Shown here: positions 12,560-34,505 of the stretch, piece by piece
Position numbering within the stretch: position 1 is the stretch's first letter
How the letters are laid out: each line of letters begins with the position of its first letter
Assembly (NCBI RefSeq): GCF_000013345.1
Contig: NC_007777.1
Span: forward strand, 1 to 64,000
Direction: 5' to 3'
From: Frankia casuarinae
GTDB lineage: Bacteria > Actinomycetota > Actinomycetes > Frankiales > Frankiaceae
Length of the DNA: 64,000 nucleotides
Notes under the pieces: generated by a model
Database searches by the model: none
Seen by the model: only the letters and a program-made list of their open reading frames with translations
Told to the model about the DNA's origin: nothing
Translations under genes and position numbers: made by a program

Positions 12560-12633
12560 GGACCTATAGCTCAGTCGGTTAGAGCGCTTCCCTGATAAGG
12601 AAGAGGTCGGTGGTTCAAGTCCACCTAGGTCCA
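12560..12633 (+). tRNA. tRNA-Ile (anticodon GAT)
   Basis: A 74-nt cloverleaf can be drawn. The acceptor stem GGACCTA (12560-12566) pairs with TAGGTCC (12626-12632). The D-arm is around TAGCTCAGTCGGTTAGAG. The anticodon stem CTTCC/GGAAG has loop CTGATAA with anticodon GAT at 12594-12596, and the T-arm contains GGTTCAAGTCC. The 3' CCA is not encoded. Location after gyrA and the DUF3566 gene is the usual actinobacterial place. No adjacent tRNA-Ala was seen. Confidence 0.96.
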
Positions 12634-13121
12634 CGCGCTAGCCAATCATGATCGCCGCCCTCTGGGCGGCTTCGCCGTGCCCGTTATGCTGGCCGAGGGG
12701 CCAAGCCCCCTGACCCCCCGTGTTGCGCCTTCGGCGCTCGCCGTGCCCGGTGGGATGGTCGGGCCGTCGGTGGCGGCGAGGTCTGAGAGCGGGCCCGGGC
12801 CGACGTGCTGCGCGAGGTCGCGGGCAACGCCACAGGGACGACTCCCGGCTGCATAAACCGTCCACCGGTGATCCGGGAAGATCCCCGCGCCTGCGGGATA
12901 AAGCGGACACAAAACCCTCTGGATGGGCAAGTCTCCCTCGTTGCCGCAGATCTTGGACTCACGACGAAGAGTCCTAATGTGACGCAGGGCACACGGCCAG
13001 GACACAGTGTCGGCCCATTTCAGTGAAGATCGGCACTCAATATCCTAATGTGCCAGGAAGCGGCGCCACCCTCGACGTCGAGGAACCAGGACATGGCCCG
13101 AGACGGACGGAGGGCGCACAG
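12634..13121. other. Intergenic region after tRNA-Ile with hairpins and an upstream direct repeat
   Basis: No convincing gene is seen. A hairpin GCCGCCC-TCT-GGGCGGC at 12654-12670 may end the tRNA transcript. The 10-mer TCCTAATGTG appears at 12972 and 13043, 71 bp apart, in front of the glycosyltransferase gene, and may be promoter or operator sequence. A CRISPR-like single repeat at 12876-12903 is listed separately. Confidence 0.5.
12876..12903 (-). repeat. Degenerate isolated CRISPR-like repeat
   Basis: Read on the plus strand, the first 15 bases (GGAAGATCCCCGCGC) match the reverse complement of the repeat in the array at 32161-34505 exactly, and 22 of 28 positions match overall. The plus strand also resembles the general type I-E form, with CCCCGC, a short loop, GCGGG and then ATAAA. 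No spacer-like neighbour copy is seen. Because these repeats are near-palindromic, orientation is uncertain. It may be a relic repeat or chance. Confidence 0.4.
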
Positions 13122-16435: not shown

Positions 16436-17035
16436 GACGCGCAGCGAACCCGCGCACGACAGCTCGCGGAAGCCCTCCGTCAGCGCCCGCACCAGGACGT
16501 GGTAGGGCGCCTGGCCCCCGTCCGCCGGGTCCGGAAAGACGTCGTGGATGGCCAGGAGACCGCCGGGCCGCACGTGGCAGGCCCAGGCCTCGTAGTCCGC
16601 CTGGGCCTGCTCCTCGGTGTGCCCGCCGTCGAGGAAGAGCAGGTCGGCCGGGGTCGACCACCATCGCCCCACCCGTTCGGAGCGGCCGACGACCGCCGTC
16701 ACGACGTCCTCGACGCCCGCGTCCTCCAGCGTCCGCCGCAGGAAGGGCAGCGTGTCCAGCCGGCCGCTACGCGGGTCGACGAGATCGGCGTCGTGGTACT
16801 CCCACCCGGGTTGGTTCTCCTCCGACCCGCGATGATGATCCACGGTGATCACCGTCGCTCCCACCGTCCGGGCGGCCGCGGCCAGGTACAGGGTCGACTT
16901 ACCGCAGTAGGTGCCGACCTCGCAGATCAGGCCGCCGGCCGATACCCGTGTTGCCGCCGCGTAGAGCGCCAGGCCCTCCTCCGTGGGCATGAAGCCCGTC
17001 GCCGCCTCGGCCGCCCGCCGCAACACCACATCCAC
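16418..17035 (-). CDS. Class I SAM-dependent methyltransferase (Methyltransf_24 type)
   Basis: SAM-binding features are ICEVGTYCGKSTLYLA and VITVDHH, then DLLFLDGGHTEEQAQADYEAW and LLAIHDVF, a pattern of the Methyltransf_24 and cephalosporin hydroxylase-like group. The substrate is unknown. The start is taken at the GTG at 17035 (VDVVLRRAAEAATGF), with a purine-rich GAAAGAGAGAG upstream. The frame stays open to 17587 only as antisense to the deformylase gene. It is 205 residues. The gene ends inside the convergent barrel-protein gene by 18 bp and starts just downstream of three 21-bp tandem repeats. Confidence 0.82.
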   Translation of the reverse strand: MDVVLRRAAEAATGFMPTEEGLALYAAATRVSAGGLICEVGTYCGKSTLYLAAAARTVGATVITVDHHRGSEENQPGWEYHDADLVDPRSGRLDTLPFLRRTLEDAGVEDVVTAVVGRSERVGRWWSTPADLLFLDGGHTEEQAQADYEAWACHVRPGGLLAIHDVFPDPADGGQAPYHVLVRALTEGFRELSCAGSLRVLRRVD

Positions 17036-17048
17036 CGCCGACTCTCTC

Positions 17049-17111
17049 TTTCTCGCAGGACGGATAGCCTTTCTTGCAGGACAGGTAGCCTTCCTCGCAG
17101 GACAGGTAGCG
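17049..17111 (-). repeat. Three 21-bp tandem repeats between deformylase and methyltransferase genes
   Basis: Units at 17049-17069, 17070-17090 and 17091-17111 share the core GCAGGACAGGTAGCC with two or three substitutions each. They lie in the 90-bp gap between the deformylase stop and the methyltransferase start. A leader or regulatory role is possible but unsupported. Confidence 0.8.
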
Positions 17112-17126
17112 CGCGCCGGTGGCTCG

Positions 17127-17810
17127 CTACCTGCCGAGCCGCGCGGCCACCTCGACCCGGCGGGCGAAGATCTCCTCGGTCCGCTCCTCCATCTCGCGGA
17201 GGGCCTTCTTGCGTCCGCGGCTCGACAGCCGGTCCAGGTAGAGGCTGCCGTACAGGTGATCGGTCTCATGCTGCAGGCAACGGGCGAAATAGCCGGTTCC
17301 CTCCAGGCGGAGCGGGGCACCGTGCTGGTCCTGACCGCGGACAGCAGCATGCTCCAGCCGGGCGACCTCCATGTAGGCCCCCGGAACAGACAGGCACCCC
17401 TCATCCCCCTTGACGAGCCGGCGCTCCGCCGGCGGCGCCTCCTCCAGGACGGGGTTGACCAGATGGCCCACGTGCCGCACACCGTCCTCGTCGGTGCAGT
17501 CATAGACGAAGACCGCGGCGTCGACGTCGATCTGGTTCGCGGCGAGTCCGACACCTTCGGCGCCGTACATGGTGGTGAACATGTCATCGATCAGCGCAGC
17601 GAGCTCCGCGGTCCCGAACTCGGTGATTTTCTTACAGGGCCGGTGCAGAACAGGCTCGCCGACAACGGTGATCCTGCGGATGGAACCGCGGCCGACCTCC
17701 GGCGGCAGCTGGGGGTAGGAGTCCACCGGCTCCCCCAGCACCCGGACCCGCCGATCGATCTTCTCGTCCTTCTCGTCCTTCTCGTCAGATCGCGTCAAGC
17801 GCGAGGCCAT
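17127..17810 (-). CDS. def: Peptide deformylase
   Basis: Peptide deformylase removes the formyl group from the N-terminal Met of nascent proteins using a bound metal ion. All three motifs are present: motif 1 [10 protein letters not shown], motif 2 EGCLSVPG with the metal-binding Cys, and motif 3 QHETDHLYG with the HExxH pair. Motif 1 has AAN where E. coli has AAP, a common actinobacterial variant. The ATG at 17810 is preceded by AAGGAG at 9 bp. An acidic/basic DEKDEKDEK run from a short tandem repeat lies near the N-terminus. It is 227 residues. A 44-bp palindrome lies about 50 bp upstream of the start. Confidence 0.95.
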
Positions 17811-17857
17811 GGCGAGCATCTCCTTCCATCCGACCGGGGCGCGCCTGCGCGTGAGTC

Positions 17858-17901
17858 GGCGCGGGGCCGATCCTGCCGATCGGCAGGATCGGCCCCGCGC
17901 C
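17858..17901. repeat. 44-bp perfect palindrome upstream of def
   Basis: Two 22-bp arms are perfectly complementary with no loop. The left arm begins GGCGCGGGGCCGATCC and the centre is GCCGATCGGC. It lies 48-91 bp upstream of the deformylase ATG, in its likely 5' leader or promoter. It could form a strong RNA hairpin or cruciform, or bind a dimeric regulator. There is no U-run on either side, so a simple terminator is unlikely. Confidence 0.9.
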
Positions 17902-17982
17902 ACCGCCGATCCTCGACGTGCTTCGTTCGCTACGAGCTTGACAGATCGCACCCCCTGTCCGCTCGGCGGACTGGTCACTCCC

Positions 17983-18096
17983 GTGATCAACAGTGTCACC
18001 AGGTGCGGCGCCATCATGGCCGCTACCTGCGGGAAGAGCGCGGACCTCAGACTGTTCATTGCATGGCGCAACTTCACCAACACCATACGCACATAA
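17983..18096 (+). CDS. Possible small protein ending at a terminator
   Basis: An open frame ends at TAA 18094-18096, at the first base of a strong intrinsic terminator on the same strand. A GTG at 17983 would give 37 residues ([15 protein letters not shown] at the start, ending [14 protein letters not shown]). An ATG at 18016 would give 26. No strong ribosome site is seen and the family is not recognised. Position against the terminator is the main support. A non-coding RNA is an equal alternative. Confidence 0.3.
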
Positions 18097-18122
18097 GGCT
18101 CCCCGGAAACGGGGAGCCTTTT
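18095..18122 (+). terminator. Strong intrinsic terminator
   Basis: A 10-bp perfect stem AAGGCTCCCC / GGGGAGCCTT with loop GGAAAC ends in four T residues on the plus strand. No annotated plus-strand gene lies directly upstream, so it marks the end of an unannotated short transcript in 17811-18095. The following 18123-18507 is relatively AT-rich and presumably holds the promoter for the gene at 18508. Confidence 0.8.
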
Positions 18123-18507
18123 CCGTGCCCGGTCGCACGCGGTCATGCCCGACCGTGTCCAGCCGTGTCCAGCCGCGTCCTATCGCCGTTCCCGCAGAGA
18201 TCGCGGACGCTGAATCGTCCGCGATCCGCGTGGGTAAGAATGATTACCGCAAAGGATGAACAGAACGTTAAATCTAACTCGCATGCCGCTAACGCAACGT
18301 ATCGTCTCCCCCTGGCGCACGGCCCACCAACAGACACCCGAACCCCGACTGGTATGGTGTCGGCCACGATAAAGCTGAACCAGTAGAGAATCACGCTCCC
18401 AGGTATTTACCTTCCGGCCAGGAGAGAGGAGTGCTGCCCCGACTCCCACGACTCCCTACACCAAAAAGACTTAGAATTATCCGGCGAATCTAGCGAGAGT
18501 TCAGTTC

Positions 18508-20655
18508 ATGGCTGCGAATTTCGCTGAAACGGTCGCTGAAAGGCCGACGCCGGGGGGGATCAACACACCGAACATGGCAGTTCCGCCGCCGGAGTACGTG
18601 GTGGTGGATCTGGATCCGGGAACGAGTGACCTCGCCGTCCCGGATGGATCCGGATGGCGGCGGGTCATGCGGGTGCCAGGACGACGGCATTACCATCACG
18701 AGCACCACGATCGCGCCATCGCGACCGTCCAGCAGGCCCGGAGCCGTACTCGATCGACGGGCCGGAGTTGCGTCGTCGGCCTTCTGTACATCGCCGAGTT
18801 CGGCCGGCTGCGCGAGCGCCTCGCTCCGGGCGCCTGCCTGTCTCTACTCGATCAGGTCGCCGCCCTGGCAGGTGATCTGCATCGGTGGCGTGGCTCCGCC
18901 ATCGGCCAGGGCCGCCCCGGCGAGGTGGTCGTCGTCCTGCCGACGCGGCCGGGCCGCTCCGCCGAAGCGGCGTTCGGCGAGATCGTGCGTACGGTCGCAA
19001 GCTGTGACTTCGCCGTCAACGGCGAGCGTCTGCGGGTCACCCCCGTTCCGGGGTTCGTCCAGGTGGACGACACCATCGATGATGCCACCGCCCTGCGGCG
19101 GGCCCGGCTGGCCATGGGGCTCGCCGCAGGGCAGCTCGACATGGTCCCCGTCTGTTACGACCCGAAGATGGAACCAGCGGAGAACCAGCCGCGACGTTCC
19201 GGGCGCCCGTTGCACACACGGTTGCGGCCGTCCGACGCCGTCCAGATCGTCGTCTCGACCGCGATCTGCCTCGGACTCCCGTTCGGGATCTACAGCACAC
19301 TGTTCACACTGGGCCTCGACCCGACCCACGTCGTCTTCGCACTCCTGGCCATCGCGCTGGCCGGCACTACCCTCACCACCTACCTGGAGCAGTTGTCGGC
19401 GCTCGAACCGGAGAAGTGCCCGGACGCGCCCGCCGCGCCGTTCCCGGCGGCGAGCGCCATCATCGCCGCGTATCTGCCGAACGAGTCGGCCACGATCGTC
19501 GACACGGTCAAGGCGTTCCTCCGGCTGGACTACCCGGGTCCACTACAGATCATCCTCGCCTATAACACTCCCCGATACCTGCCCGTGGAGGAGACGCTCG
19601 CGCGGATCGCCGATTCCGATCCCCGTTTCATCCCGATGCACGTGCCGACCAGCACCTCCAAGGCGCAGAACGTGAACGCGGCGATGCCAATGATCACCGG
19701 TGAGTTCGTCGGTGTCTTCGACGCGGATCATCATCCGGCACCGGACGCCTTCCGGCGGGCCTGGCGGTGGCTGTCGCACGGGGCCGCGGTCGTCCAGGGG
19801 CACTGCGTGATCCGGAACGGAGAGGCATCGCGGATCAGCCGCACCGTCGCCGTGGAATTCGAGTCGATCTATGCGGTGAGTCATCCCGGCCGGGCGAGGA
19901 TGCATGGTTTCGGGATCTTCGGCGGGTCGAACGGCTACTGGCGGACCGACCTGCTGCACCAGACCCGTATGCGCGGGTCGATGCTGACCGAGGACATCGA
20001 CGCGAGTCTGCGCACCATCATGAGCGGTGAGCGGATCGTCGCAGACCCGGAACTGGTCTCCTACGAGCTGGCGCCGACGACGATGTCGGCGTTGTGGCGG
20101 CAGCGGTTGCGCTGGGCGCAGGGTTGGTACCAGGTCTCCCAGCGGCATCTGTGGAAAGCCGTCGGCTCACCCGACCTCACCGCCCGCCAGAAACTCGGCC
20201 TGCTCTGGCTGCTGGGCTGGCGCGAGATATATCCGTGGCTTTCGCTGCAGATGTATCCGCTGATCGTCTTCGGTCTGCTGCACCCGCAGTCCGGGCACGG
20301 TTTCCGGTTGAACGTCTCCCTGTACGTGGTCGCCACACTCTTCTCGGCGATGGCGGGCCCGATCCAGGCGTTGTTCGCGTACGCCCTCGCCGACCCCACG
20401 ATCCGCCGCCATCGGAGTTGGTTCGTCCAGTTCTGCCTGATGAACATCGTCTACAGCGAGTTCAAGAACGTCATCGCCCGGCTGGCACCGGTGAAGGAGC
20501 TGCTGCGGGAACGCGAGTGGCACGTGACCCCACGCGCCGTGCCGCAGCCCGACCCGGTCACGCCGGACGGCGCGACCGCACCTCCAGCTGGCTCCGCACC
20601 TCCAGCTGGCTCCGCGGCGGGCGGTGTGGTCCCTTACCCCGAAGCCAGGTCATGA
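18508..20655 (+). CDS. Membrane GT2 glycosyltransferase with degenerate GGDEF-like N-terminus
   Basis: Residues about 85-215 look like a degenerate GGDEF domain: a beta-strand VVGLLYIAEF, then GRPGEVVVVLP where GGDEF would stand, then a region ending ALRRARLAMGLAAGQ. Two membrane helices follow near 250-290. The GT2 domain (about 310-570) has FDADHHP with its DxD-type acid, LTEDIDAS and the QRLRWAQGW motif of processive synthases such as cellulose or hyaluronan synthase. Further membrane helices follow. The product polymer is unknown. The enzyme overlaps the next reading frame by ATGA. Replacement of the GGDEF residues argues against cyclase activity; a c-di-GMP sensing role is inference. Confidence 0.82.
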   Translation: MAANFAETVAERPTPGGINTPNMAVPPPEYVVVDLDPGTSDLAVPDGSGWRRVMRVPGRRHYHHEHHDRAIATVQQARSRTRSTGRSCVVGLLYIAEFGRLRERLAPGACLSLLDQVAALAGDLHRWRGSAIGQGRPGEVVVVLPTRPGRSAEAAFGEIVRTVASCDFAVNGERLRVTPVPGFVQVDDTIDDATALRRARLAMGLAAGQLDMVPVCYDPKMEPAENQPRRSGRPLHTRLRPSDAVQIVVSTAICLGLPFGIYSTLFTLGLDPTHVVFALLAIALAGTTLTTYLEQLSALEPEKCPDAPAAPFPAASAIIAAYLPNESATIVDTVKAFLRLDYPGPLQIILAYNTPRYLPVEETLARIADSDPRFIPMHVPTSTSKAQNVNAAMPMITGEFVGVFDADHHPAPDAFRRAWRWLSHGAAVVQGHCVIRNGEASRISRTVAVEFESIYAVSHPGRARMHGFGIFGGSNGYWRTDLLHQTRMRGSMLTEDIDASLRTIMSGERIVADPELVSYELAPTTMSALWRQRLRWAQGWYQVSQRHLWKAVGSPDLTARQKLGLLWLLGWREIYPWLSLQMYPLIVFGLLHPQSGHGFRLNVSLYVVATLFSAMAGPIQALFAYALADPTIRRHRSWFVQFCLMNIVYSEFKNVIARLAPVKELLREREWHVTPRAVPQPDPVTPDGATAPPAGSAPPAGSAAGGVVPYPEARS

Positions 20656-20725
20656 CCACACCAGGCGGACCTCGAAACATCGTGCCGAGGTCCCGGGTTC
20701 TGCCCGCGCCGGCTCTCCCGTCCTG

Positions 20726-22171
20726 GTGGGCGCAGCCCCCGCCGCCGCCGCCGCCGGTGCCGCCGCCGCCGGTGCCGCCGCCGCCGGTGCCGCCGCCGCC
20801 AGTGCCGCCGCCGCCAGTGCCGCCGCCGAGAGAGCGGCCGACCGTGCCGGTCCGGACCTCGGCCCGGCCGCGGGCCGGGGGGTGGGTATCACCGGAGAGA
20901 GCGGAGGGAACCGCCGCGGTCGCCGACGGACGACGGTGGGCGATCCCAGGCTCGAGCTGGTCGACCTGGGCGGGTTCCGCGGCGTGGCGGCGATCTCAGT
21001 GATCATTTTTCACGCCTATCAGTTCTGCCGCGGGGATGGCAACACGCCGTACGCGGGTACGTTCCTCGGCCAGGTCCTCGGCGCCTTCGACGGGATGATC
21101 AGTTGGTTCTTCCTGGTCTCCGGGTTCCTGCTGTATATGCCGATGGCGAACCGGGTCAGGGCCGGCCGGACCCAACGGTCACCCAAGAACACGCTCATAC
21201 GTCGTGGACTGCGGATTCTTCCGCTGTACTACACGGCGCTCATCGTCGTGTGGGCGGCGCGTAATCCCACTCTGCCCGGCGACTGGATCGACCTGGTCGA
21301 ACACCTGACCTTCACCCAGGTCTTCGACAGCAAGCGGGTGTTCTACACGATCGGCCCGGCCTGGTCGCTGGCCGTCGAGGTCTACTTCTATCTATACCTC
21401 GCCCTGGTCGCCGGCTGGCTGCGGCGGCAGACTCATCGACTACCCGAGGCGCATCGCTGGCGGCGGCTCTGCCTGCCGCCGGTCCTGCTGATCGTGGTGT
21501 CCGCCGTCTGGATCGTCTATGCGGTCTACATCGTGCGGGCTCAGCACGACCAGTGGGCGTACTGGTTCTCGCCGCAGAACTATGCCGGCAACTTCGGCCT
21601 CGGAATGATCACTGCGGTTCTCTATGTCCGATGGGGTCGGGAGCGGCCGTTGCCCGCCCTGCTCGCGTGTGCGTTGCGGTTTGTCGCCGCCGGGCTCATC
21701 ATCGCCGGCGCGCTGGTCCGGGGGCACACCGCGGCATCGTTCGAGGCGTTCTCCACGCTGAATTCAATCGGTTTCGGTGTGCTGTTCGCCGCATCCGTGC
21801 TGGCACCCCGCGACACGCTGTGGCGCCGGTTCTTCGCCACCCCGGCATTCGTCTGGCTCGGCATGATCAGCTACAGCGTGTATCTGTGGCATGAGCCGAT
21901 TCTGCTGCTGGTGCTGGACCGGCACGGGCTGGTCAGTCATGCGCCGTCGGCGTTTCCGTGGGTGGCCGCCATGCTGGTCACGGTCGGCGTCCTCGGTGGA
22001 TGGATCAGCTACGTCGTCCTGGAGAAACCGGGCCGCCGGCTGTCCATCCTGGTGGAGAAGCTCCGCCGCACCCCGGTGTCCGCCTCGGTGTCCCCCGCCT
22101 TGGTGTCCCCCGCCCCGGTGTCCCCCGCCCCGGTGTCCACCCCGGTGCGACCGGCACGGCCAGTTCCCTGA
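20726..22171 (+). CDS. Acyltransferase 3 family membrane protein
   Basis: From about 20940 on, this is an integral-membrane acyltransferase of the Acyl_transf_3/OafA family. It begins LELVDLGGFRGVAAISVIIF, with the conserved His in IFHAYQF, and has about ten hydrophobic helices and a final segment SYSVYLWHEPILL. Such proteins O-acylate cell-surface sugars. The start is uncertain: GTG 20726 is used here, GTG 20882 and 20936 are alternatives. An ATG at 20652, overlapping the upstream stop as ATGA, opens a different frame through a Pro-rich repeat, so a frameshift is possible. The C-terminus has 12-bp repeats encoding Val-Ser-Pro-Ala. It probably acts with the GT2 gene upstream. Confidence 0.8.
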   Translation: MGAAPAAAAAGAAAAGAAAAGAAAASAAAASAAAERAADRAGPDLGPAAGRGVGITGESGGNRRGRRRTTVGDPRLELVDLGGFRGVAAISVIIFHAYQFCRGDGNTPYAGTFLGQVLGAFDGMISWFFLVSGFLLYMPMANRVRAGRTQRSPKNTLIRRGLRILPLYYTALIVVWAARNPTLPGDWIDLVEHLTFTQVFDSKRVFYTIGPAWSLAVEVYFYLYLALVAGWLRRQTHRLPEAHRWRRLCLPPVLLIVVSAVWIVYAVYIVRAQHDQWAYWFSPQNYAGNFGLGMITAVLYVRWGRERPLPALLACALRFVAAGLIIAGALVRGHTAASFEAFSTLNSIGFGVLFAASVLAPRDTLWRRFFATPAFVWLGMISYSVYLWHEPILLLVLDRHGLVSHAPSAFPWVAAMLVTVGVLGGWISYVVLEKPGRRLSILVEKLRRTPVSASVSPALVSPAPVSPAPVSTPVRPARPVP

Positions 22172-22255
22172 CGTGGCGTGGCGCAGGCTTCCCGGTCTGC
22201 GCCGGCTGCGCTACGTGCGCCGGCCGCGCGCGGATCGTCTCCCGTTGGAGGCCCC

Positions 22256-22284
22256 GTCGTCCCCGCAGGCGCGGGGATCTTTCC
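22256..22284 (+). repeat. Isolated CRISPR repeat upstream of cas3
   Basis: This single copy matches the 28-nt array repeat with one substitution (C to G in the loop) and one extra T near the end. It begins GTCGTCCCCGCAGGCG and ends ATCTTTCC. It lies 85 bp after the acyltransferase stop and about 145 bp before cas3, in the same orientation as the main array about 9.9 kb away. No second copy was found nearby. It may be a remnant array end or a regulatory crRNA-like element. Confidence 0.8.
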
Positions 22285-22427
22285 AGTGATTTCCTGTCTT
22301 CAGGGCTGGGAGAACGCACAGCTCAATAATCAGTAAAACGAATCAGGCAAGCCGTCAACAGCATTTCTACGACGGCCGATGTCACGTCCAAGCCCCCATG
22401 AACGGGCTCATTTCGCAAGGTGCTTGA

Positions 22428-25316
22428 ATGGGGCTGTCCATTATATCTGGGATGGGAGTCTTCATGGATGATGAGTTCTTCGGTATGATATGGGGGAAGT
22501 CGGCGGAGAAGGCGGGGGGATCGATGCACCTGCTCCTCGGCCATCTTCTGGATACGGCGGCGGTGGGCGAACTTGTCTGGGATCGTTTCCTCGCATCCAC
22601 CATTCGGGATCGTCTGGATGATTGCAGCGATGGTCGCGGGCGGTCTCTGTTCGCGCTGTTGTGCGGCCTGCATGATGTCGGTAAGGCCACGCCGGCCTTT
22701 CAGATGAAGGACGAGGGTTTGGCGCAGCGCGTTCGGGCTGCCGGGCTTGGCTGGCGAGGGGTGACTCCTCAGCAGGGCCGGCAGTGGCATCACGCGCGGG
22801 CGGGGGCTGTCATCGTCCGCAAGTATCTCCCGCAGGTCGGTTGGAGTCGGCCGGGGTGTGACTGGGTGTGGCCGCTGGTCGCGGGCCATCACGGCCTGAT
22901 ACCGGACCGTGGCCGTCTTGTGCACAAGCCCGCCGTCCACGGCGCCGGACCGTGGCTCGACGTCCAACGTGCGTTCGTCGACCGGGTGGCCGGCGACCTC
23001 AACGTTGACCTGGCTTCCTTTTCGGAGCTGCGAACACCATCCCGCGGAGGTCAGCTTGCCCTATCCGGGATGATCATCATGGCAGACTGGGTCGCGAGCG
23101 ACAAAGAGCATTTCGGTGGGCTGTCGGATCTGGCGGAGATCTCGATGAAGGGCTCGCGGGAGCGTGCACAGCGAGCCTGGGCACAGTTGGGTCTGCGTGG
23201 CGGGTGGCGCTCCGACCGGCCCGCACCCGGCAACCAGTCTGACCTGGTGCACCACAGATTCGGTAAGCCAGCCCGGCCGGCGCAGCGCGCCGCGGTCCAG
23301 GCCGTGCGGGAAATGCCCGGCCCCGGGCTACTGATCCTGGAAGCGCCGATGGGTGAGGGGAAGACGGAGGCGGCGCTCGCCGCCGCGGAGGTACTGGCCG
23401 GCAAGGTCGGTGCGGATGGGGTGTTCGTCGGAATGCCGACGCAGGCGACGAGCGATCCGATGTTCAGCCGGGTCCGCGGCTGGCTCACCGCGGTGGATCC
23501 CGAGGTTCCGATCGGCCTACTGCACGGCCGGGCTCGTTTCAACAAGGAGTGGGCGGCACTTCGGTCGCAGGTCCGGTTCGTCGACGTGCATGACGATCTC
23601 GACGAGTATGGGATGGCCGACGATTTCGGTACGGGTACGAGCGGCCCGGGTCGTCGCGACGCACCGCTGGCGGGCGCCGCGGCGGCCGCGGAGTGGTTCT
23701 TCGGATCGAAACGGGGGTTGCTCGCTGCGGTGACGGTCGGCACGGTGGATCACCTGCTGCAGGCGGCGACCCGGACGAAGCATGTGATGCTACGGCACGC
23801 CGGCCTGGCCGGCCGGGTCGTCATCCTTGACGAGGTACACGCCTACGACGTCTACATGGCGCAGTTCCTGTTCGAGGCGTTGCGCTGGCTCGCCGACACC
23901 GGCGTGCCGGTCATCGTTCTGTCCGCGACGCTGCCGCCGGTACTGCGTGCACAGCTCGCCGGCGCCTATCTGCAGGGCGCCCTGCAGCGCCCCGATGTCG
24001 ACCTCGCCGATCTGCCGCGGCCCACCGGCTACCCGAGCACCACCGCGGTGTATATGGCCGACGGGAAGCCCCGGTTTTCCGTGACGTCCCAGTCACCCTG
24101 GCGTGAGTCCGTGCCCGTTGCGGTAGAGATCCTGGCAGAGCCCACCGACTTCGCCCCGGTGAGCATCGCCGCCGCTGTCTCGGCGGAGGTGAGCGAGGGC
24201 GGCTGCGCTCTCGTCGTGTGTAACACCGTCCAGCGGGCCCAGGTCGTCTACGCCGAGCTGCGGACGACGTTCGGTGATGACGTGGTGCTGCTGCACTCCC
24301 GGTTCACCGCAGCCGAACGCGCGAGCCGTACGGAAGACGTCGTGGACAAGCTCGGCCCCCCCGGACGGGAGAACGCCCAGGACCGGCCCGCGCGGCTCGT
24401 CGTCGTGGCCACCCAGGTGGCCGAACAGTCGTTCGACGTCGATGTGGACATCCTCGTCACCGATCTCGCCCCCATCGACCTTCTGCTGCAACGGGTCGGC
24501 CGGCTGCATCGGCATGACCGGCCGACCGGGCAGCGACCGGCCCGGCTTCGCGACCCGAAAGTGATCGTCAGCGGTCTGCGGCTGCCCGACGGGGCTGTGC
24601 CACTCTGGCCCGCCGGTAGCCGGGCCGTGTACGGGGATCATCTACTGCTGCGCTCCGCCGCTCTCGTCGCCGAAGCCGCCACGGGTGGTGGATGGTCGAT
24701 TCCCGCCGACGTGCCCGGCCTCGTCGCTCTCGGCTACGGTGATGAGCCTCTCGGTCCGGCGCGCTGGGCTGATGCCGCGGCCGAGGCCAGGCAGGAATGG
24801 GAGGCCAAGGAGCGTCGTCGCCGGGTGAACGCCACCGGATTTCTGCTTTCCGGCGAGGACGGTCTGGGCCTGACCACGCTCGAGGGTCTGCACGACAAGG
24901 CGACCGCGCCGCTGGAAACCGAGGAACGCCTCACCGCGGTCGTCCGTGACAGCGACGAGTCCGTGGAGGTCGTCCTCGTCCGCCGCGGACCGGCCGGGTA
25001 TCTCACGCTCGCGGGCCGATCGCTCGGGCACATCGGCGAAGTTGCCGTGTCTGACGACGCGGTCCTCGAAGAGGTCGTCGGAGCCACCATCCGCCTGCCC
25101 GCGAACAAGGAGATCACCGCCGCGGCGCATGCCGAACTGACTCCCCTGGCCGGCTGGGACGGCGACTCCTGGCTCCGCCGCACCCGCGCCCTGATTCTCG
25201 ACGATCGCATGTCGGCGATCCTCGGGGGGCGACACCTGACCTATGACAACAAGCTCGGGCTGAGCCTCGCGCCTCGACCGGCTGCTGATACTCGACCGGC
25301 TGCTGGTAAAGGGTGA
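22428..25316 (+). CDS. cas3: CRISPR-associated helicase-nuclease Cas3 (type I-E)
   Basis: Cas3 is the HD nuclease and DExH helicase recruited by Cascade to degrade target DNA. The HD domain includes LLGHLLDTAA, the HD pair in CGLHDVGKA at residues 82-83, HHARAG and VAGHHG. The helicase has Walker A APMGEGKTEAA near 305, DEVH in LDEVHAYD near 468, SAT in LSATLPP and motif VI QRVGRLHRH. At 962 residues it is full length. ATG 22428 (AAGG upstream) and ATG 22464 (GGGAG, 5 bp) are both possible starts; the second better fits relatives. It opens the cas locus but is separated from cas8e by a 362-bp gap. Confidence 0.96.
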   Translation: MGLSIISGMGVFMDDEFFGMIWGKSAEKAGGSMHLLLGHLLDTAAVGELVWDRFLASTIRDRLDDCSDGRGRSLFALLCGLHDVGKATPAFQMKDEGLAQRVRAAGLGWRGVTPQQGRQWHHARAGAVIVRKYLPQVGWSRPGCDWVWPLVAGHHGLIPDRGRLVHKPAVHGAGPWLDVQRAFVDRVAGDLNVDLASFSELRTPSRGGQLALSGMIIMADWVASDKEHFGGLSDLAEISMKGSRERAQRAWAQLGLRGGWRSDRPAPGNQSDLVHHRFGKPARPAQRAAVQAVREMPGPGLLILEAPMGEGKTEAALAAAEVLAGKVGADGVFVGMPTQATSDPMFSRVRGWLTAVDPEVPIGLLHGRARFNKEWAALRSQVRFVDVHDDLDEYGMADDFGTGTSGPGRRDAPLAGAAAAAEWFFGSKRGLLAAVTVGTVDHLLQAATRTKHVMLRHAGLAGRVVILDEVHAYDVYMAQFLFEALRWLADTGVPVIVLSATLPPVLRAQLAGAYLQGALQRPDVDLADLPRPTGYPSTTAVYMADGKPRFSVTSQSPWRESVPVAVEILAEPTDFAPVSIAAAVSAEVSEGGCALVVCNTVQRAQVVYAELRTTFGDDVVLLHSRFTAAERASRTEDVVDKLGPPGRENAQDRPARLVVVATQVAEQSFDVDVDILVTDLAPIDLLLQRVGRLHRHDRPTGQRPARLRDPKVIVSGLRLPDGAVPLWPAGSRAVYGDHLLLRSAALVAEAATGGGWSIPADVPGLVALGYGDEPLGPARWADAAAEARQEWEAKERRRRVNATGFLLSGEDGLGLTTLEGLHDKATAPLETEERLTAVVRDSDESVEVVLVRRGPAGYLTLAGRSLGHIGEVAVSDDAVLEEVVGATIRLPANKEITAAAHAELTPLAGWDGDSWLRRTRALILDDRMSAILGGRHLTYDNKLGLSLAPRPAADTRPAAGKG

Positions 25317-25678
25317 ACTGCCGGACCGGGGCAAGGTGTTGATCTTCTCGGCGCTCAAGATGGGACGGCTGACTCCCATGCTCCGAGACAAGGCGAATCC
25401 GTGCAGATATACCGGTTCACCCCATACGTCACTGTATGTGCTACTTTCGGTGCGAGGCGGGAGCATGGGCACCGTTCGGCCAGTTATCTGGTCGCCATGG
25501 GTTAGGAGATCCTTGATGTGGCGACGCCAGATGTCCATCTCCTAGCAGGAGCCGCACGATCGGTAGCAGCCGACGTGCCGCGCCGTCGCGGTCGACCAAA
25601 ACTGTCGGTGGCCCTTGGTACATCTCGGCTGAGCCACCGACGGTCGGCGCAGGCCGGGGCCTACGAACGGGGGAATGA
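25317..25678. other. Gap between cas3 and cas8e, probable Cascade promoter region
   Basis: In an otherwise tight locus this 362-bp gap has no convincing gene; small frames on both strands lack ribosome sites and recognisable sequence. It contains an 8-bp inverted repeat TAGGAGAT / ATCTCCTA at 25503-25510 and 25537-25544. A separate promoter for the Cascade-cas1-cas2 genes here is inference. Confidence 0.4.
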
Positions 25679-30874: not shown

Positions 30875-31867
30875 ATGTGGTGGCTGTCCAATCCGCAGGA
30901 CCTGCACCGCGTCGAGGACCGCGTCTCCACGCTCTACGTCGAGAAATGCCACGTTGACCGCGACGACAACGCCGTCGTCCTGGTCAACAAGGAACGCACC
31001 GTCCGTGTCCCCGCCGCGTTCGTCGCCACCGTCCTGCTCGGTCCCGGAACCCGCATCACCAGCGCCGCCGTGCGCCTGCTCGCCGACTCCGGCACCGCCC
31101 TGTGCTGGGTCGGCGACCGCGGCGTACGCATGTATGCCGCAGGACTCGGACCCAGCCGCGGCGCCGGCCTGCTCATGCGCCAGGCTTACCTCGTCACCCG
31201 CACCAGCGAACGCCTTGACGTCGCCCGCCGCATGTACGCCAAACGCTTCCCCGACGACGACGTCACCACCGCCACCATGCAACAACTCCGCGGCCGGGAA
31301 GGCGCCCGCATCAAAAAGATCTACCGCGATCACGCCACCCGCACCGGCGTCACCTGGAACAAACGCGTCTACACCCACGGCGACCCCTTTGCCGACAGCG
31401 ACGACATCAACCGGCTCCTGTCCGCCGGACACAGCTGCCTCTACGGCATCTGCCACGCCGCCATCGTCGGCATCGGCGCCAGCCCCGCCCTCGGATTCGT
31501 CCACACCGGAGCCGCCACCTCCTTCGTCCTCGACATCGCCGACCTGTACAAAGCCGACTACACCATTCCCCTCGCCTTCGACCTCGCCGCCGCCGGCCTC
31601 ACCGACGAGCGCGACATCCGCACCGCCTTCCGCGACAAAGTCGCTGACGGGCACCTCATGGCCCGCATCATCCACGACATCAAAGACCTCCTCATCGAGG
31701 AAGGAACCCGAGATAACGACGAGGACGCACTCCACTTGTGGGACGAGCTCGACGGCCACGTCCCCGGCGGCGTCAACTGGGCCGCCGACCTCGCCGACCA
31801 GACCGACGACACCACCATCCTCGGTGTCACCGGACCCGACACCGACCAGCCACCCCCACCCTGGTGA
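30875..31867 (+). CDS. cas1: CRISPR integrase Cas1 (type I-E)
   Basis: Cas1 is the catalytic integrase that inserts new spacers with Cas2. The metal-binding residues are Glu142 in RGREGARIKKIY, His210 in GFVHTG and Asp220/Asp223 in VLDIADLYK. The spacing matches Cas1e. It starts 1 bp after the cas6e stop. It is 330 residues, longer than E. coli Cas1 because of a Pro-rich tail ending DQPPPPW. The stop overlaps the cas2 GTG by 4 bp. Confidence 0.96.
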   Translation: MWWLSNPQDLHRVEDRVSTLYVEKCHVDRDDNAVVLVNKERTVRVPAAFVATVLLGPGTRITSAAVRLLADSGTALCWVGDRGVRMYAAGLGPSRGAGLLMRQAYLVTRTSERLDVARRMYAKRFPDDDVTTATMQQLRGREGARIKKIYRDHATRTGVTWNKRVYTHGDPFADSDDINRLLSAGHSCLYGICHAAIVGIGASPALGFVHTGAATSFVLDIADLYKADYTIPLAFDLAAAGLTDERDIRTAFRDKVADGHLMARIIHDIKDLLIEEGTRDNDEDALHLWDELDGHVPGGVNWAADLADQTDDTTILGVTGPDTDQPPPPW

Positions 31868-32142
31868 CCGTCATCGTCCTCATCGCCACCGCCGACGGCC
31901 TCCGCGGCCACCTCACCCGCTGGATGATCGAAATCTCGGCGGGCGTCTTCGTCGGCAACCCCAGCGCCCGCGTCCGCGACCGGCTCTGGACCCTGCTCTC
32001 CCAACGCGTCGGTGACGGCCAAGCCATCATGATCGAACCAGCCACGAACGAACAAGGCTGGGCCGCCCGCACCGCCGGCCGCAACCGCACCCAGCCCGTC
32101 GACTACGACGGACTGATACTGTTTGCCCGATCTCGCCGATAA
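31864..32142 (+). CDS. cas2: CRISPR-associated protein Cas2 (type I-E)
   Basis: Cas2e is the structural partner of Cas1 in spacer integration. It has the core LRGHLTRWMIEISAGVFVG followed by NPSARVRDRLW, and it ends with the typical PVDYDGLILF. The GTG at 31864 overlaps the cas1 stop. The frame is open from 31738, but Cas2 homology begins at VTVIVLIATADG. At 92 residues it is full length. The first CRISPR repeat begins only 18 bp after its stop, so the expected non-coding leader is absent. Confidence 0.95.
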   Translation: MTVIVLIATADGLRGHLTRWMIEISAGVFVGNPSARVRDRLWTLLSQRVGDGQAIMIEPATNEQGWAARTAGRNRTQPVDYDGLILFARSRR

Positions 32143-32160
32143 ACCCGCAGGTCAGCAAGT

Positions 32161-34505
32161 GTCGTCCCCGCACGCGCGGGGATCTTCCTGTCAGCCCGAA
32201 AGATCTCCGGTGGCCGTCGGCGTCGTCCCCGCACGCGCGGGGATCTTCCCCGCAGCAGTGTTCACCCGCGCATGTCTGTTACGTCGTCCCCGCACGCGCG
32301 GGGATCTTCCCGAGATGAAACACAGCAGCTCGACAGGGGTGCCGTCGTCCCCGCACGCGCGGGGATCTTCCCTCGGCCCAGCCCATCCGCTCGATGGCGC
32401 AGCGGTCGTCCCCGCACGCGCGGGGATCTTCCCTCCCTCGCCGAGATGTGGGTGCTCACCCGCTGGTCGTCCCCGCACGCGCGGGGATCTTCCCGGCTCT
32501 ACGCCCTGCACCACGTCGACATCGCCGTCGTCCCCGCACGCGCGGGGATCTTCCCCAGAACATGACCACGGTCGGCTGTCGCGCGCTGTCGTCCCCGCAC
32601 GCGCGGGGATCTTCCCCGTCTCCGCGGACTCGACCAGTCACCCATGCCGTCGTCCCCGCACGCGCGGGGATCTTCCGGTTCCCGAGCATCGACCGGGCGG
32701 CCTGCGACCGTCGTCCCCGCACGCGCGGGGATCTTCCGGTCTCGTGCATTCCGATCGCGGCCGCGGCGGCGTCGTCCCCGCACGCGCGGGGATCTTCCTA
32801 TTTTCCGGAGCTTTGAAACCCATTGCTTAGTCGTCCCCGCACGCGCGGGGATCTTCCCATTGCGGTCCTGCACAGTCATCCAGACCAGGGGTCGTCCCCG
32901 CACGCGCGGGGATCTTCCTCCCAGAGGGCAGTCCTGGAGTGGTGGCGCCCGGTCGTCCCCGCACGCGCGGGGATCTTCCCCTCGACGTACACCACAAGCG
33001 GCTACACGCCGAGTCGTCCCCGCACGCGCGGGGATCTTCCGAGCATCCGTCGGCTCCAGCTCGGCTGAGGCCGGTCGTCCCCGCACGCGCGGGGATCTTC
33101 CTTCGGGTGAAGAAAGCCGCGCGCAATCGCATTCGTCGTCCCCGCACGCGCGGGGATCTTCCGCGGGGGATGAGGTCGGCGGGCACGTGCCAGTGGTCGT
33201 CCCCGCACGCGCGGGGATCTTCCTTGAGATGGACGCCGACCACACGGCGCGGATCGGTCGTCCCCGCACGCGCGGGGATCTTCCTCTGCTGTCATATCTG
33301 GTGGGTGGAAACCGCCCGTCGTCCCCGCACGCGCGGGGATCTTCCCAGATCGGACCGGCCGGCTGGGGCTCCCACCGCGTCGTCCCCGCACGCGCGGGGA
33401 TCTTCCGCGCATGGGGTTGCAACTCCGCACCGCCCGGCAGTCGTCCCCGCACGCGCGGGGATCTTCCGGACGAGATTGCGGCGATCGGAAACGAGATCGT
33501 GTCGTCCCCGCACGCGCGGGGATCTTCCGCCTGGCCCGGCCCGGCCGCGGGGTCGGGATGAGTCGTCCCCGCACGCGCGGGGATCTTCCCTTCCCATCGA
33601 CCCACAGCTAGGCATCCTGGACGTCGTCCCCGCACGCGCGGGGATCTTCCTGGCCCAGACGTGGGCCGACGACCAGCGCAATCGTCGTCCCCGCACGCGC
33701 GGGGATCTTCCTTCCAGCCTCATCCCGCCACCAACGTCCCGCAGGTCGTCCCCGCACGCGCGGGGATCTTCCCCCGAGGTCTTCGAGAAGGTAGAGGCTT
33801 CCCGGGTCGTCCCCGCACGCGCGGGGATCTTCCTAGCGGGACCGTCCGGGGCTGCAACCCCCGGACGGTCGTCCCCGCACGCGCGGGGATCTTCCCCCGT
33901 CGTCGCTGACCGCGCCCAACTTCGCGGCGTCGTCCCCGCACGCGCGGGGATCTTCCCCGTGCCCGTTCCCGGGCGATCCGCGCGCGCATGTCGTCCCCGC
34001 ACGCGCGGGGATCTTCCTCTCGCCATCCAGAAAGTTGCCGGTTCCAGAGGGTCGTCCCCGCACGCGCGGGGATCTTCCTGCGCCGCGATGCGGCATGAGC
34101 GGCTTGTCGTCGTCGTCCCCGCACGCGCGGGGATCTTCCCCTACACCATGGACGACGTCAACGCTATGGCTGGTCGTCCCCGCACGCGCGGGGATCTTCC
34201 TTCGGGTGAAGAAAGCCGCGCGCAATCGCATTCGTCGTCCCCGCACGCGCGGGGATCTTCCCCTCAGATGAGGTGGGAAAGCTTGCCTTCGCGGGTCGTC
34301 CCCGCACGCGCGGGGATCTTCCTTGAGATGGACGCCGACCACACGGCGCGGATCGGTCGTCCCCGCACGCGCGGGGATCTTCCCCCCCACCCCTGTTTTC
34401 GAGGAGACCCCACGATGTCGTCCCCGCACGCGCGGGGATCTTCCCATCCAGGAAGGAGCAGACCGTGACCGTCGAGCGTCGTCCCCGCACGCGCGGGGAT
34501 CTTCC
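32161..34505 (+). CRISPR. Type I-E CRISPR array, 39 repeats and 38 spacers
   Basis: The 28-bp repeat starts GTCGT, has a CCCCGC / GCGGGG stem with loop ACGC, and ends ATCTTCC. The plus strand matches the E. coli I-E repeat layout (5 nt, stem, handle), so the crRNA is read on the plus strand. All 39 copies look identical, including both ends. Spacers are 33 bp, except spacer 11 (31 bp) and spacer 28 (34 bp). Spacers 16 and 34 are identical, as are 18 and 36, with different spacers between (17 and 35). The first repeat is 18 bp after cas2 and the last is 20 bp before the ohr stop. Open frames running through the array are artefacts of stop-free repeats. Confidence 0.98.

Follow-up and report, generated by a model that had tools for sequence, protein, structure and literature searches.

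An isolated type I-E CRISPR repeat upstream of cas3 in Frankia casuarinae as the probable relic of a lost array

The type I-E locus and its isolated repeat

The window analysed in this study is the first 64 kb (64,000 nucleotides) of the single-contig genome of Frankia casuarinae CcI3 (NC_007777.1; 5,433,628 bp). The genes of a type I-E system were assigned by protein family (cas3, cas8e, cse2, cas7, cas5, cas6 and cas1); the next ORF examined, at 30954-32015, had no family match. In the sections of the CcI3 transcriptome paper available to us, cas3, cas1 and cas2 are given as Francci3_0017, _0023 and _0024, the array nearest the origin is described with 38 spacers, as in the main array of the window, and few RNA-seq reads map to the arrays (PMC3188489). 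The features of the locus are as follows.

22195-22222, plus strand: possible badly decayed repeat, one array period (61 bp) upstream of the isolated (solo) repeat; 14/28 matches, weak
22256-22284, plus strand: isolated copy of the type I-E CRISPR repeat (28-29 nt); intact stem, AGGC in the loop where the array repeat has ACGC, and ATCTTTCC in the handle where it has ATCTTCCN
22285-22316, plus strand: the 32 bases after the solo repeat, scored as a possible guide, for which no target was found; best interpreted as trailer DNA of an array
22428-25316, plus strand: cas3 ORF (cas3_core and cas3_HD above cut-off); likely start at ATG 22464
25317-25678: gap between cas3 and cas8e; site of a CreR-like mini-CRISPR in eight relative loci, none seen here
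32161-34505, plus strand: main array of 39 identical repeats; leader-like motif GCAGGTCAGCAAGT at 32147

The solo repeat (GTCGTCCCCGCAGGCGCGGGGATCTTTCC) is identical to the main-array repeat (GTCGTCCCCGCACGCGCGGGGATCTTCC) at 26 of 28 bases. It differs by C13 to G in the loop and C27 to T in the handle, and the CCCCGC/GCGGGG stem is unchanged. Both substitutions lie outside the 12 stem bases, an outcome expected by chance about once in three (16/28 x 15/27), so that they give no sign of selection on the repeat. The distance to the main array is 9,905 bp and the orientation is the same, in agreement with the preliminary description of a near-perfect copy of the array repeat standing alone 9.9 kb away. 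The distance to cas3, given there as about 145 bp, holds for the ORF opening at 22428; a by-eye comparison with the Cas3 starts of relatives suggests that ATG 22464 is more probably the start codon, and from the end of the repeat to this ATG there are about 179 bp.

When the whole genome was searched with an exact 26-base pattern (loop base C or G), 40 copies were found, the 39 of the array and the solo repeat, and none with the reversed pattern as a control. A 24-base pattern with up to three mismatches, which sets the limit of the genome-wide count, added one ectopic copy at 12876-12899 on the minus strand, again with a control of 0. Given these controls, the solo repeat is not a chance match. 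No repeat lies at +61 or +122 from it (7/28 each). The 14/28 match at -61 is a score reached by 2.9% of the positions in 20601-22250, and the 13/28 match at -121 by 6.2%; scores this common among nearby positions are at most a hint of decayed neighbours. The identity of the repeat and its isolation are established, as is the earlier observation that no second repeat flanks it: there are no two regularly spaced repeats bounding a spacer, as a functional array would have.

Apart from the motif at 32147, no copy of the leader motif (at least 12/14) was found in the window, so the neighbourhood of 22 kb retains no leader. A scan of 22100-22500 gave no promoter- or terminator-like pattern, and the only Rfam hit near the solo repeat was sub-threshold and on the other strand (16.8 bits; gathering score 50). 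A phage origin of 22285-22420 was discarded, the comparison giving a single weak match (E 0.4).

The other ectopic copy belongs to a second relic, at 12836-12903 on the minus strand, adjoining a tRNA-Ile gene (12560-12634). It is a 22/28 copy. Over its final 22 bases the loop base is the one difference from the array repeat, giving the AGGC loop also seen in the solo repeat. After exactly 33 bases comes GTCGTCCC, which corresponds to the start of another repeat (8 bases); further on the match fades (11/28 overall, no better than neighbouring offsets). No partial target of its spacer was found within 1.5 kb (p 0.81). In the main array, two spacers are present twice in the same order, with one differing spacer between them (33102-33256 and 34201-34355), which is an internal duplication or array recombination.

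Arrays and mini-CRISPRs in related genomes

A Cas3 protein search gave matches in 30 of 146 genomes, the CcI3 genome included. Twenty loci from 19 of the other 29 Cas3-positive genomes were extracted and oriented; the remaining 10 genomes, mostly more distant, were viewed as short loci only. A same-orientation array precedes cas3 in 7/20 loci from six genomes (G002, G011 twice, G006, G021, G118 and G003), with 123-256 bp between the start of its last repeat and the cas3 match; the corresponding distance from the start of the solo repeat to the cas3 ORF opening is 172 bp. These arrays have from 4 (at a contig edge) to 94 repeats, counted at 22/28 matches or more, and some of them end at contig edges. 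Their terminal repeats match the consensus of their own array at 25, 17, 24, 26, 26, 20 and 22 of 28 bases, and the solo repeat at 26/28 fits this series in both position and match. In four of the seven arrays (L039, L043, L044 and L055) the match clearly worsens towards cas3; the last four repeats all score 25-26 in L050 and 17-20 in L056, and L040 is irregular. Longer arrays, which the preliminary description had proposed looking for, are present at the homologous place in relatives. The set of related genomes does not extend to further strains of F. casuarinae, and the lost array was not observed directly.

The remaining 13 loci are arranged differently. Repeats face the opposite way in six (in one of these, a lone repeat at a contig edge) and are not detectable with this repeat in five. 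A mini-CRISPR and a single repeat facing the other way are all that was found in another, and in the last the contig begins inside cas3. A survey of named loci covered 60 of 80 and overlapped the set of 20; the 20 omitted comprised three ending near cas3 and, for the rest, mostly loci of other phyla or Coriobacteria. At least one unit of the locus's own array, in either orientation, lies within 700 bp upstream of cas3 in 22/60 (two being single copies), a lower bound in which short or decayed arrays (e.g. L106) are missed. Repeats before cas3 are therefore common.

No homologues of the window's upstream genes (16983-22171) were found in the 20 loci, 14 of which extend at least 3 kb upstream of cas3, and this fits a rearranged flank. 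The trailer (22285-22427) gave no convincing alignment with the trailers of relatives. The matches to 22172-22427 listed among the 12 other genomes of the genus comprised repeat copies, none extending past 22294, and a single upstream match in G004 (22186-22227, 45 bases, 82%); the rest of the flank is uncovered by any of the matches listed.

Nine loci in eight related genomes (L039, L040, L043-L048 and L050) carry a mini-CRISPR of the CreR/CreA type beside the cas genes, together with a partial protospacer. L043 and L044 are near-identical, leaving eight independent modules; Frankia torreyi CpI1 carries two of the nine. Each consists of psiR1 (GCCCAGCC..GCTGGGGTCnTCC), a spacer of 20-21 or 32-33 nt, and psiR2 (GTCGTCCCCGC....GCGGGG, with the handle lost). 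Eight modules lie antisense in the cas3-cas8e gap and that of L046 before cas3. No module was seen in the stretches inspected of the CcI3 window and of the remaining loci of the 20. In L056 the cas3-cas8e gap (1,155 bp) holds a transposase-like ORF, by eye seemingly where other relatives have the module. Titles and abstract openings of the literature, a scope that leaves out the 2023 CreR paper, gave no report of such modules in Frankia.

Guides were scored over their first 18 bases except positions 6, 12 and 18, which are not read by Cascade (maximum 15), and an AAN PAM was required, chosen after the sites of the relatives had been viewed by eye. For every module the target is the best PAM-flanked match of the whole locus (9-17 kb), on the same strand and 45-129 nt upstream of psiR1. 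The PAM is AAC or AAT, and L048 has two such sites. The targets score 12-14/15; in 300 simulated regions eight of the nine scores were never reached and the ninth once, and guides swapped between loci reached 12 or more in 2/70 trials. When scored without a PAM, the same sites were the best of the whole locus in 9/9 cases, four of them tied with one other (L039, L040, L044 and L046). A TAnnnT box ends 6-7 nt before psiR1 in 9/9 modules; for comparison, about 0.1% of window positions begin a box of this form. It resembles a -10 element that would start an RNA at psiR1. A covariance model built from eight modules and run over the 146 genomes ranked exactly the nine modules first (62-80 bits). 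The next hits listed (58.6 bits or less), inspected in part, look like array units by their spacing, so that the search added no member.

In seven of the nine loci (L039, L040, L043, L044, L045, L047 and L050), the target precedes a small ORF that runs in the cas direction in the gap, ahead of cas8e; no such ORF was seen in the gap of L048, and the module of L046 lies before cas3. The first ATG, GTG or TTG past the target, taken as the candidate start, is 1-65 nt beyond its PAM-side edge, and the ORF ends 107-186 nt before cas8e. From this start the products are 88-136 aa long; by eye they contain one hydrophobic stretch and end in a basic tail. In four of six ORF pairs the differences at codon positions 1/2/3 (28/17/37, 32/23/43, 30/23/43 and 36/29/43) are fewest at position 2 and most at position 3, which supports coding; the L045-L047 pair (34/42/49) is without this pattern and the L043-L044 pair is too similar to tell. 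The small ORF is thus probably coding. Three of the seven proteins were scanned for families, with none above cut-off in Pfam and none in PADLOC; one Pfam hit was sub-threshold (DUF3017, 16.1 bits against 25).

Origin of the isolated repeat

The solo repeat shares with CreA and CreR elements that it is one of one or two repeats standing outside an array near cas genes, and the preliminary description had proposed that it forms a crRNA-like guide of Cascade to a nearby promoter. Its flank was scored in three registers against the sequence within 1 kb and the cas3-cas8e gap. The best PAM-flanked matches reached 6-8/15 (p 0.65-0.98 against simulated sequence), and without a PAM 9-10 (p 0.5-1.0). 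As controls, the 38 real array spacers scored 7-11 in the same regions, 36 of them above the flank 22285-22308 (7/15). Over the whole window the best score of the flank was 10, and those of the array spacers were 9-12. A genome-wide search with three mismatches gave as many weak non-self matches (3) as its reversed control (3). The absence of detectable targets is established in these searches: no PAM-flanked, seed-matched partial target lies near a promoter, and the partial complementarity to be looked for near the cas3 and cas8e promoters does not rise above control, either locally or genome-wide. The proposal of a guide is not supported by this comparison. The handle and the first bases of the guide partly pair with later bases, to a degree that is not unusual (z -1.3).

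These searches bear directly on the view that the repeat and about 32 bases after it act as a single-repeat CreA or CreR, a crRNA-like RNA that would repress the cas3 or cas8e promoter through Cascade. Such an action is known for ectopic repeats present once or twice (PMC9458426, in the part of the article available to us), the stem and most of the handle are intact, and true mini-CRISPRs of such a type are present in the loci of relatives. Beyond the lack of a target above controls, however, there is no psiR1 or psiR2 partner and no degenerate psiR1-spacer-psiR2 unit at the solo repeat: the covariance-model hit there (22219-22276) scores 25.5 bits, next to 24.8-25.4 for spurious array hits and 62-80 for the modules. 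Nor does a TAnnnT box stand just before it, as in 9/9 modules, or any match listed in the 12 genus genomes cover the flank beyond 22294. On the target searches and the covariance model, this reading was rejected as very improbable. Elements of this kind, anticipated in the preliminary description for such loci, do exist in the relatives, as nine modules mostly at another site, but not at the solo repeat. A slim chance, slightly better than the last, is given to the solo repeat being the psiR2 of a decayed CreR-like mini-CRISPR whose psiR1 has degenerated. L046 carries its module just before cas3 in the same orientation, and a handle-like ATCGTCTCC lies 13 bases ahead of the solo repeat. The psiR2 of all nine modules, however, is without the handle half that the solo repeat retains, the 13-base interval falls short of the 20-33 bases found in the modules, and neither a psiR1 hairpin nor, by eye, an AAC- or AAT-flanked target was seen upstream, on which grounds the candidate was set aside.

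It would also be conceivable, and is again very improbable, that the hairpin lies in the 5' leader of the cas3 mRNA as a Cas6e processing site that tunes this mRNA. The stem is intact, upstream of cas3 and on the same strand, and it folds well (z -3.0). Yet nothing indicates a cas3 transcription start upstream of the hairpin, 0/20 relative loci have a single intact repeat alone before cas3 (L045 has one opposite repeat, at a contig edge), and a relic would look identical.

We consider it highly probable that the solo repeat is the leader-distal end of a former same-orientation array upstream of cas3, the rest of which has been lost. It matches the repeat of the local array significantly and stands where 7/20 relative loci have an array in the same position and orientation, which gives substance to the earlier suggestion that it is left over from an array at the opposite end of the cas genes. 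The second relic-like copy with the same loop base, 9.4 kb away, also counts in favour of a relic. Against it count the state of the repeat, which is less decayed than an old relic might be, the unconvincing trailer alignment, and the different arrangement in 13/20 loci. By this account, an array oriented as in several relatives would have stood upstream of cas3, and its remainder and leader would have been removed by deletion or rearrangement between the acyltransferase-like gene that ends at 22171 and the repeat, leaving one terminal repeat and trailer DNA. With no spacer bounded by two repeats, no guide RNA would be made; if the region were transcribed through, the hairpin could be cut by Cas6e, and nothing points to a use. 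We infer the loss event, and likewise that the remnant is neither transcribed nor functional.

Significance and comparison with known systems

The finding at the solo repeat is in itself ordinary, and the modules of the relatives merit a study of their own. An isolated, well-kept repeat beside cas genes need not be regulatory, and relics can be told from CreR-type elements by a simple test, a target search with array spacers as controls. The modules of the relatives place mini-CRISPRs of the CreR/CreA type, with clear partial targets, in nitrogen-fixing actinobacteria; most of them are linked to a small gene without a recognised family (three proteins scanned).

The modules may be CreR elements acting on a cas promoter or a CrePA variant with the small gene as a candidate toxin; it is the linked small gene that may make them CrePA-like. 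Tentatively, and with the odds rather against it, a module of the Frankia family that is absent from CcI3 might work as follows: a mini-CRISPR RNA starting at psiR1, antisense in the cas3-cas8e gap, would guide Cascade to a site just upstream of a gene for a small membrane protein ahead of cas8e. Loss or inhibition of Cascade would then switch on either a toxin, small and membrane-bound, as a CrePA variant whose toxin class would be new, or the small gene together with the cas8e operon. The modules thereby make it testable whether Cascade guards the cells by way of a membrane toxin or only regulates its own genes. CreTA, with an RNA toxin between the target and creA, is a less likely reading, since psiR1 is directly preceded by the TAnnnT box and the small ORF lies on the opposite strand. 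This CRISPR-regulated module does not include the solo repeat at 22256.

With terminal repeats and orphan relics of type I-E arrays, the solo repeat shares its position, its orientation to cas3 and the few substitutions also found in the terminal repeats of relatives; it differs in that only one repeat is left and the array is gone. CreR, the cas-regulating RNA of Liu et al. 2023 (as cited in PMC13131331 and PMC12737573, in the parts available to us), is already in print for type I-E, autorepression of this type being described for types I-B, I-E and V-A (PMC13131331, same parts). It shares with the solo repeat an ectopic repeat beside the cas genes. The solo repeat, however, lacks a second repeat and partial complementarity to a cas promoter, whereas the nine relative loci have both repeats and a partial target. 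CreTA and its CreA likewise share an ectopic repeat, sometimes a single one (PMC9458426 and PMC8501985, in the sections available to us); the solo repeat is without a target, has no toxin gene in view and is not degenerated as psiR1 is. CrePA, in which a protein toxin is repressed by Cascade (PMC12737573, section 3.3), has nothing in common with the solo repeat. With seven of the nine modules of the relatives it shares a probable protein gene directly downstream of the target, but the product of this small gene has, by eye, a hydrophobic stretch and a tail of basic residues, whereas CreP typically has a KilA-N domain (PMC12737573).
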